From Paracoccaceae bacterium (GTDB taxonomy: Bacteria; Pseudomonadota; Alphaproteobacteria; Rhodobacterales; Rhodobacteraceae), in NCBI GenBank assembly GCA_016938875.1, contig JAFGTV010000008.1, forward strand, positions 372,001-436,000: DNA of 64,000 nt. Reading direction: 5' to 3'. The position numbers and the translations under genes are program-made. Positions within the stretch are counted from its first letter, which is position 1. Every line of letters begins with the position of its first letter. Shown one piece after another: positions 6,672 through 9,814 of the stretch. The notes under the pieces are model-generated. The model saw nothing but the letters and a program-made list of their open reading frames with translations, ran no database searches and was not told the DNA's origin.

Positions 6672-8636
6672 ATGCCCGCCGACGATCTTCTCTCCGGGGC
6701 CGCCAGCCCCGACACCTATGACGCCTCTTCCATCGAGGTGCTGGAGGGGCTGGAGCCCGTCCGCAAACGCCCCGGCATGTATATCGGCGGCACCGACGAA
6801 CGTGCGTTGCACCACCTGGTGGCCGAGGTGCTGGACAACTCGATGGACGAGGCCGTGGCCGGGCACGCCACCCGGATCGAGGTCGAGCTGCACCCCGACT
6901 ATTCCGTGACCATCCGCGACAACGGGCGCGGCATCCCCGTCGATCCGCACCCCAAGTTTCCCGACAAATCCGCGCTGGAGGTCATCCTGTGCACCCTGCA
7001 TGCGGGCGGCAAGTTCTCGGGCAAGGCCTATCAGACCTCGGGCGGCCTGCACGGGGTGGGCGTGTCGGTGGTCAACGCGCTGTCGGACCATCTTCGGGTC
7101 GAGGTCGCGCGCGGCCGCGAGTTGTTCGCCCAGGAGTTTTCCCGCGGCATCCCCCAGGGCCCGATACAACCCGTCGGCGCGGCGCCCAACCGGCGCGGCA
7201 CCTCGGTCACGTTTCACGCCGACCCCGAGATTTTCGGCAGCCACCGCTTCAAACCCGCCCGAATGCTCAAGATGGTCCGGTCCAAGGCCTATCTCTTTTC
7301 AGGCGTGGAAATCCGCTGGAAATCCGCGATCCCGGATGGCGACACCCCGATGGAGGCCGTGTTCCACTTCCCCGGCGGGTTGGCCGATTACCTGAACGAA
7401 ACCCTGGGCAAGGCCGCGACCTATGCCGAGCGTCCGTTTGCCGGAAAGGTCTCGTTCCAGGAAAAGTTCGGCCAGCCGGGATCGGTGGAATGGGCGATCA
7501 ACTGGACCCCCTCGCGCGACGGGTTCATCAACTCCTACTGCAACACGGTGCCCACGCCCGAGGGCGGCACCCACGAGCAGGGCTTTTGGGCCGCGATCCT
7601 GAAGGGCATCCGGGCCTACGGCGAACTGGCCAGCAACCGCAAGGCCGCCCAGATCACCCGCGACGACCTGATCACGGGCGGCTGCGCGATGGTGTCGACC
7701 TTTATCCGCGAACCCGAATTCGTCGGCCAGACCAAGGACCGCCTGGCCACGACCGAGGCCGCGCGCATGGTCGAGGGCGCGGTGCGCGACCATTTCGACA
7801 ACTGGCTGGCCTCCGACACCAAATCGGCCGGCGCGATCCTGGATTTCCTGGTGCTGCGCGCCGAAGAGCGGCTGAAACGCCGCGCCGAAAAGGAAACCCA
7901 GCGCAAGACCGCCACCAAGCGGCTGCGCCTGCCCGGCAAGCTGGTGGATTGTTCCGCCACCAACCGCGCGGGAACCGAGTTGTTCATCGTCGAGGGCGAC
8001 AGCGCGGGCGGGTCCGCCAAAATGGCGCGAGAGCGCAAGACACAGGCGCTGTTGCCGCTGCGGGGCAAGATCCTGAACGTGCTGGGCGCGGCCTCGTCGA
8101 AACTGGGCACCAACGCCGAGATCAGCGACCTGACCCAGGCGCTGGGCACCGGGATGGGCACGCGGTTCAACCTGGACGACCTGCGCTATGACAAAGTCAT
8201 CATCATGACCGACGCCGATGTCGACGGCGCGCATATCGCGTCGCTGCTGATGACCTTCTTCTTCACCCAGATGCGCCCGCTCATCGACCACGGGCACCTG
8301 TACCTGGCCTGCCCGCCGCTGTTCCGCCTGACCCAAGGCGCGAAGCGCGTTTATGCGCTGGACGAGGCCGAAAAGGCGATGTGGCTGGAAAAGGGCCTGG
8401 GCGGCAAGGGCAAGATCGACGTGTCCCGCTTCAAGGGCCTGGGCGAAATGGACGCCAAGGACCTTAAGGAAACCACGATGGACCCCGCCAGCCGCAAACT
8501 GATCCGCGTCTCCATCGACGAGGACGAACCGGGAGAGACCGCCGACCTGGTGGAGCGCCTGATGGGCAAGAAACCGGAATTGCGGTTCCAGTATATCCAG
8601 GAGAATGCGAGGTTCGTGGAGGAGGTGGATGTTTGA
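6672..8636 (+). CDS. parE: DNA topoisomerase IV subunit B
   Basis: [35 protein letters not shown] ATPase; [41 protein letters not shown]; ends RFVEEVDV*. Confidence 0.95.
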
Positions 8637-9129
8637 ACTGACCGACTACTTAGAGAAGAACTTAGATCGTCAAATAGACTTTATAAGAGCATCAGAAACT
8701 CGCCTAAGGTTCCTAGTGCCAATGATCTCGCTCTCACTAGCAGCATGGGCAACTGCATTTAGAGTGGCTGATATTGGAGCATACAGCAATGCCACCGCTG
8801 GGATAGTTTCTATCTTTTTGATAGTCCTGTCACTCTTCTTCTGCTATCGTTCAGTTTTTCCAAACCTAAGGGGCGCAGAAAATTCAAATATATTTTTTTA
8901 CCATATTTGCCAGAAAAGCTTCTCCGAATTTCGATGTACATCGGAGAATATGTCTGAAAAAGAGTATAATCGCGACCTCATCGAGCAATGTTATGTAAAT
9001 GCAAGAATAGCAAACTCGAAATTTAAGAACATAAGCCGAGCAATGTTGAGCTGGTTTCTATCACTTGTGCCCTTGACAGTGTTCCTTGTGCTTCAAATGG
9101 ATGCGCTTAAAAATGTCGGAAATCAGTGA
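8629..9129 (+). CDS. Candidate Pycsar transmembrane effector (PycTM-like)
   Basis: [40 protein letters not shown]...(TM)...NIFFYHICQKSFSEF...RDLIEQCYVNARIANSKFKNISRAML(TM); layout and FF.xI..+ QxxxNAxIAxxKF pattern as in the Pycsar effector family; AT-rich. Confidence 0.75.
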   Translation: MFELTDYLEKNLDRQIDFIRASETRLRFLVPMISLSLAAWATAFRVADIGAYSNATAGIVSIFLIVLSLFFCYRSVFPNLRGAENSNIFFYHICQKSFSEFRCTSENMSEKEYNRDLIEQCYVNARIANSKFKNISRAMLSWFLSLVPLTVFLVLQMDALKNVGNQ

Positions 9130-9814
9130 AGACGTTAAACAGATCATAAACACACTCTGGGACGTGAGCGAAACAAAATCTGTTCCAGAGACCACAGATA
9201 TAAAGCTGGCTGGAGGCGCTCGCTGGATAGAGGCCACTTATCTCTACGCGGATCTTGCTAACTCCTCAAAAATGGCATCAGTGCTAGATAGGAGGGTTAC
9301 CGCTAAAATAATCAAGTCCTTTCTTATGGGGGCGGCAAAAATTGTTGCCTTGAAGAATGGCAAAGTCGTAAGCTTCGATGGCGATAGAATTATGGCTATT
9401 TTCACGGGCGATCGAAAGAATACAAATGCAGCAGAATGCGGACTGGGAATTAATTGGCTTGTATCAGACGTAATTAGGAATAAATTCGAAGAAAAATACT
9501 CATCAATTTCAGAAAATGGAATTAAAATTATTCATGGAACAGGGATTGATACAGGGCGGGCGCTAATCGTACGCGGTGGCGTGCGCGGAAATAACGACCT
9601 TATTTCTATTGGAAGAGCGCCAAACATGGCGGCAAAAATGAGCGATTTGCGTGGGGGATTCACCACGCGACTGTCAGAAGAAGTCTACTCACGAGTGCAC
9701 AAAGACGCTAAGTATGCGAACAAAGACGGAAGTCTTATGTGGGAAAAAGCCACTTGGGAGTTCTTGGGTGAAGAGCACACAATCTATCGAAGTACTTGGT
9801 GGAGAAAGCCATAA
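9113..9814 (+). CDS. Candidate Pycsar pyrimidine cyclase (class III nucleotide cyclase, PycC-like)
   Basis: ATYLYADLANSSKMA (metal Asp 1), VVSFDGDRIMAIFTG (metal Asp 2), GIDTGRALIVRGGVRGNNDLISIGRAPNMAAKM, C-terminal TIYRSTWWRKP; resembles Pycsar cyclases. Confidence 0.85.
   Translation: MSEISEDVKQIINTLWDVSETKSVPETTDIKLAGGARWIEATYLYADLANSSKMASVLDRRVTAKIIKSFLMGAAKIVALKNGKVVSFDGDRIMAIFTGDRKNTNAAECGLGINWLVSDVIRNKFEEKYSSISENGIKIIHGTGIDTGRALIVRGGVRGNNDLISIGRAPNMAAKMSDLRGGFTTRLSEEVYSRVHKDAKYANKDGSLMWEKATWEFLGEEHTIYRSTWWRKP

Follow-up and report, generated by a model that had tools for sequence, protein, structure and literature searches.

A two-gene Pycsar system in a Rhodobacteraceae genome, very probably now occupying an insertion site where parE ends

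What are two AT-rich open reading frames (ORFs) doing directly behind parE in otherwise GC-rich DNA, and how might they have come to lie there? The question is raised by a 64,000-nucleotide (nt) stretch of a Paracoccaceae bacterium genome (contig JAFGTV010000008.1, positions 372,001 to 436,000), which is referred to here as the window and is numbered from its first letter. An earlier, sequence-only reading took the two ORFs for an anti-phage Pycsar pair, a transmembrane effector followed by a pyrimidine cyclase. That identification is supported alike by PADLOC, by Pfam and by the nearest PDB entries in sequence and in fold. The locus is very probably a two-gene Pycsar system that at present fills an insertion site at the parE 3' end. 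The ORFs lie where they had been placed and are indeed low in GC (~41-45% guanine plus cytosine) within flanks of 65-67%, the GC content rising again 3' of the pair. The neighbouring gene was correctly named as parE (TIGR01055, 757.9 bits), but the recurrent insertion site was missed. The features on which the argument turns are the following.

6672..8636, plus strand: parE, DNA topoisomerase IV subunit B (NCBIfam TIGR01055, cut-off 723.35 bits)
8601..8636, plus strand: parE 3' tail, GAGAATGCGAGGTTCGTGGAGGAGGTGGATGTT-TGA, typical of insert-bearing genomes (silent-site comparison across genera, sequence)
8629..9129, plus strand: PycTM membrane effector, 166 amino acids, as assigned by PADLOC PDLC02364, PF18967 and AlphaFold
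9113..9814, plus strand: PycC pyrimidine cyclase, 233 amino acids, clade-B-like, as assigned by PADLOC PDLC00766, the 7R65 match, residues and fold

By sequence and modelled fold, the ORF at 9113-9814 encodes a PycC-family Pycsar cyclase. It matches the PADLOC PycC profile PDLC00766 over residues 3-232 of 233 (E value 1.6e-82) and PDLC02367 at 1.5e-81, and its nearest PDB sequence is 7R65, the clade B synthase of cyclic UMP (cUMP) BcPycC (4.6e-41), with 42% identity over 212 aligned residues. The AlphaFold model (predicted local distance difference test score, pLDDT, 90.7) has the same structure as its top Foldseek match, with template-modelling (TM) scores of 0.88/0.90, and 8JSZ, a uridylate cyclase, as its second; profile search and structural comparison had both been proposed as checks by the sequence-only reading. 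The motifs which that reading quoted are real: YLYADLANSS contains Y45 and D47, FDGDR contains D89, D91 and R92, IGRAPNMAAK aligns with IGRAANYAAK of BcPycC, and the C-terminal YRSxWWRKP, which it ascribed to Pycsar-type cyclases, recurs across the cyclase family. The catalytic metal-binding aspartates are D47 and D91 (in the alignment, D52 and D96 of BcPycC), and the clade-B UTP-recognition residues are all kept, Y45, D89 and R92 corresponding to BcPycC Y50, D94 and R97, the roles of which have been described (PMC11224242). Since both catalytic aspartates and all three UTP residues are present, the product is predicted to be cUMP and not cyclic CMP (cCMP).

Clade E PycC enzymes make cCMP (PMC11224242), and the window cyclase might do likewise, with an effector responding to cCMP. 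This is very unlikely: the clade E enzyme EaPycC (8JSF) matches the window cyclase at only E = 0.68 by sequence and with a TM score of 0.68 by fold, 7R65 being far closer, and the clade-B pocket is intact. Close homologues of the cyclase carry the NCBI name 'adenylate/guanylate cyclase domain-containing protein', as would suit an ordinary class III adenylate/guanylate cyclase beside an unrelated membrane protein. That explanation is extremely improbable, however. The best ordinary adenylate cyclase reaches only ~8e-6, far below 7R65 (the sequence-only reading had staked itself on this comparison), and the clade A enzyme 6YII is also far behind; moreover, the neighbouring protein is recognised independently as PycTM by PADLOC and Pfam, and in distant bacteria the two genes are again found together.

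The ORF at 8629-9129 is, by its profile matches, the PycTM effector. PADLOC PDLC02364 covers residues 5-157 of 166 (1e-29), and Pfam PF18967 (Pycsar effector protein) scores 46.8 bits against a cut-off of 27.2. Its AlphaFold model (mean pLDDT 93.6) consists of bundled long helices, with helices at residues 2-46, 52-76, 110-155 and 157-164 around a short-helix linker at 90-106, a PycTM-like layout that had been correctly drawn in outline. Foldseek found no significant solved structure matching the model.

The pair is packed tightly against parE. The effector ATG at 8629 lies within the final parE codons (GATGTTTGA), so that the parE stop and the effector start overlap (ATGTTTGA at 8629-8636), and the parE tail contributes a GGAGG ribosome-binding sequence as well as the ATG; the low-GC DNA begins exactly at this overlap. 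The cyclase ATG at 9113 in turn starts inside the effector ORF, with a 17-nt overlap (9113-9129), and the two Pycsar ORFs are the only plausible genes of the insert. (An extension of the parE ORF to 6543 is possible; in this longer form the TIGR01055 match starts at residue 58.) In a scan of 8300-10500, the junction of parE with the pair shows no promoter-like site, the sole such site in that interval lying inside the cyclase gene and within chance expectation, and the simplest reading is that the pair would be expressed from the parE transcript. Transcription from the parE promoter, and translation coupled to that of parE via the overlapping start and stop codons, would provide steady low expression. 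Upon phage infection the cyclase, presumably a dimer with its clade-B UTP pocket, would make 3',5'-cUMP, which would activate the PycTM effector; disruption of the inner membrane would then halt growth before phage release.

Several points weigh against this account. A search of 5.8 billion proteins returned, beyond the effector itself, a single distant homologue, and the function of the effector is read from its profiles, although sparse homologues would be expected for a fast-evolving effector. The coupling to parE, with no promoter identified, is deduced from the overlap of sequences, and the signalling and defence functions suggested for the locus draw on what is known of the family.

As a Pycsar system, the pair is one more good candidate in a known family; its location is the more unusual part and has the larger value. 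In the window's genus, the DNA directly after the parE stop varies between genomes: in 11 of the 16 members the tail is of the insert type (near GAGAATGCGAGGTTCGTGGAGGAGGTGGATGTT), with low-GC DNA immediately behind it, and in 5 it is GC-rich, with no such drop. An even sample of one genome per genus from 54 Rhodobacteraceae genera, chosen to avoid selection on the tail, was scored for low-GC inserts, defined by a GC content of the first 400 nt after parE at least 0.10 below that of parE; 27 genera have such an insert, a different one from that of the window, 21 are empty and 6 intermediate. (For 40 additional sample loci GC content was the sole criterion for an insert, and the calling of insert genes was mechanical.) At silent sites of the final five parE codons, identity is 0.82 among insert carriers against 0.45 among empty genera; at those of parE codons 9-30 the values are 0.57 and 0.56. 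With phylogeny uncorrected throughout, the last-five-codon difference was reached in none of 2000 label permutations, and tail class is associated with the insert at Fisher p 9e-5 over the 54 genera and 1e-8 over all 104 loci, which are partly tail-selected. The tail pattern, with at most two mismatches, occurs in 48 of 401 family genomes (sampled mostly one per genus), and a shorter pattern occurs in none of 149 genomes from other families of the class. The tail pattern retrieved 80 metagenomic loci, every one a parE end, and low-GC DNA lies behind the insert-type tail in 67 of the 76 with enough sequence. No published parE hotspot in Rhodobacteraceae was found in the open-access literature.

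Our proposal, a tentative one to which we give somewhat less than an even chance, is that Rhodobacteraceae as a family have a docking site, so far undescribed, at the parE 3' end: short cassettes of low GC content, in many cases made up of defence genes, would insert precisely at the parE stop, carrying with them a conserved ~25-bp parE tail, by a recombination route needing no cassette gene, and the Pycsar pair would be one such cassette. That the parE tail is instead no part of the moving unit, inserts arriving by chance recombination and the tail codons being selected afterwards as a GGAGGAG ribosome-binding site for the insert gene, is somewhat improbable. The tail does contain a Shine-Dalgarno-like GGAGGAG and an ATG that is used by some insert genes, and a recombinase was found in none of the insert proteins scanned. 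Nevertheless, loci whose called insert gene runs opposite to parE (such as L121, L127, L134 and L135) keep that tail, and conservation extends to the third position of codon -8, which is not part of the ribosome-binding sequence. If the last parE codons do mark a landing place, as the docking-site proposal has it, then candidate defence genes could be listed for any Rhodobacteraceae genome by reading what follows parE, and the mechanism of exchange becomes testable.

The gene-called inserts are ~0.5-1.4 kb long and adjoin the parE stop, usually with one or two genes each. Among the loci of the genus and those selected by pattern, most inserts have a single gene, on either strand, and some start or stop codons overlap that stop. 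The 98 insert proteins form 70 sequence clusters, 7 of them found in at least two genomes. Twelve of the 47 insert proteins scanned have Pfam abortive infection, HEPN, TIR, RelA/SpoT or restriction domains (three HEPN_AbiU2, two RelA_SpoT, AbiTii, Abi_alpha, Abi_C, MrcB_N, Mrr_cat, HEPN_RiboL-PSP and TIR_2, with one AbiU2 match and the TIR match marginally below the Pfam cut-off), PADLOC adds matches to PD-T4-10_B, PDC-S02, S33, S45 and S47, and most of the 47 match no named defence family. As a control, 37 native ORFs further downstream gave nearly all housekeeping families among their 25 most-matched Pfam families, and PADLOC matches mainly resembling ABC-ATPase cross-matches. At L125 (G408, 159-1576) two minus-strand genes lie behind parE, the larger matching PADLOC PD-T4-10_B (1e-24); there too the occupant may be a defence system of two genes. 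One insert protein family, often with a C-terminal hydrophobic segment, recurs at this site in several genera (L056, L101, L106, L115, L298 and L319); its L101 member has no PADLOC match.

More familiar vehicles have been considered. The 47 scanned insert proteins include no recombinase, transposase or integrase family (insertion-sequence-like ORFs seen by eye in L052 and L112 are both outside that scan). An integrase-bearing island is rejected on that count and for want of an integrase ORF in the window insert; a Tn7-like or CRISPR-associated transposon (CAST) is likewise set aside, the window insert having the two Pycsar ORFs as its only plausible genes. As to integron cassettes, the same proteins lack an integrase family, and palindromes stand behind many inserts. 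Phage origin of the pair is rejected on the absence of cyclase relatives from 50,697 phage records and of parE-tail matches from viral contigs, in which 11 more distant cyclase relatives are present.

To the right of the pair, the features of the window are these.

9835..9849, no strand assigned: half of a palindrome resembling repetitive extragenic palindromic (REP) elements (ACCACCCACCCTACCC), at the insert right edge (comparison with same-genus loci L056, L062, L063 and L064)
9842..9951, no strand assigned: conserved right edge, the upstream region and first codons of a truncated DUF1194-like (VWA) gene (blastn and alignment with same-genus L052, L053, L062 and L064)
10373..10447, minus strand: tRNA-Gln (ttg), the next conserved feature rightward (ARAGORN)

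The DUF1194-like (VWA) family name comes from reading the sequence, with no profile search behind it, and no intact close copy of the truncated gene was found elsewhere in its own genome. Beyond the tRNA gene lie kdsA (10533-11387) and, on the minus strand at 11374-13696, capsule export genes, with a BexC/CtrB/KpsE-like inner-membrane protein identified by profile and, beside it, an ABC ATPase identified by reading.

A repeat search of 8400-10600 for flanking direct repeats (att sites) found only short chance-like pairs. Behind many insert genes (L103, L115, L118, L123, L144 and others) there are REP-like repeats (GTAGGGTGGGT) or long palindromes rich in GC (GCGCCCGACC...GGTCGGGCGC), and G003 has two copies of such an element ~3.2 kb apart, one of them directly after parE without a low-GC insert. 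Since the strict palindrome motif, present in 10 of 86 insert loci vs 2 of 31 empty ones, does not separate the two classes, and since the G003 element stands without an insert, no right end conserved across genera is claimed. At L053 (G313, ~1.9-3.1 kb) the conserved right-edge piece appears twice, with ~1.2 kb between the copies and ~22 bp in common, as if a second insertion had followed behind the first.

The cyclase is matched by 451 proteins at E<=1e-10. Strong matches are rare close by, occurring in 3 of 301 family genomes (E below 1e-40), including the window's own, and in 2 of 16 members of its genus. In the genome collection Leisingera aquaemixtae comes nearest (67%), and matches of 50-57% come from Proteobacteria, Ignavibacteria and others. 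In the closest relatives examined a transmembrane effector lies directly 5' of the cyclase; by a simple transmembrane criterion applied to 91 cyclase loci, it is upstream in 37, downstream in 18, on both sides in 1 and unassigned in 35.

Among known systems, the closest named relative is the pair of L. aquaemixtae CECT 8399 (contig NZ_CYSR01000021), which has the same gene order, an effector 43% identical and a cyclase annotated merely as adenylate/guanylate cyclase; it too lies behind parE, but with a 74-amino-acid ORF and ~0.37 kb between parE and the effector. BcPycC-PycTM of Burkholderia cepacia LK29 (clade B, 7R65) shares catalytic and UTP-pocket residues and fold with the window cyclase; the window pair differs in its host and genomic setting, in a strongly diverged effector sequence and in an effector start within the end of parE. 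The type I-F3 CAST Tn7017 has a TniQ-recognised parE attachment site (PMC11406308), so that there also the region beside parE serves for insertion; in contrast, inserts of the window's type abut the parE stop, the parE tail itself differs, and no Tns/TniQ family occurs among the 47 insert proteins. The core defence hotspots cDHS1 and cDHS2 of Pseudomonas aeruginosa (PMC10250203) resemble the parE site in being fixed places by core genes that hold different defence systems in different genomes. They are large, with medians of 26 kb and 6 kb, and belong to one species, whereas the parE inserts are ~0.5-1.4 kb and their site spans a family.
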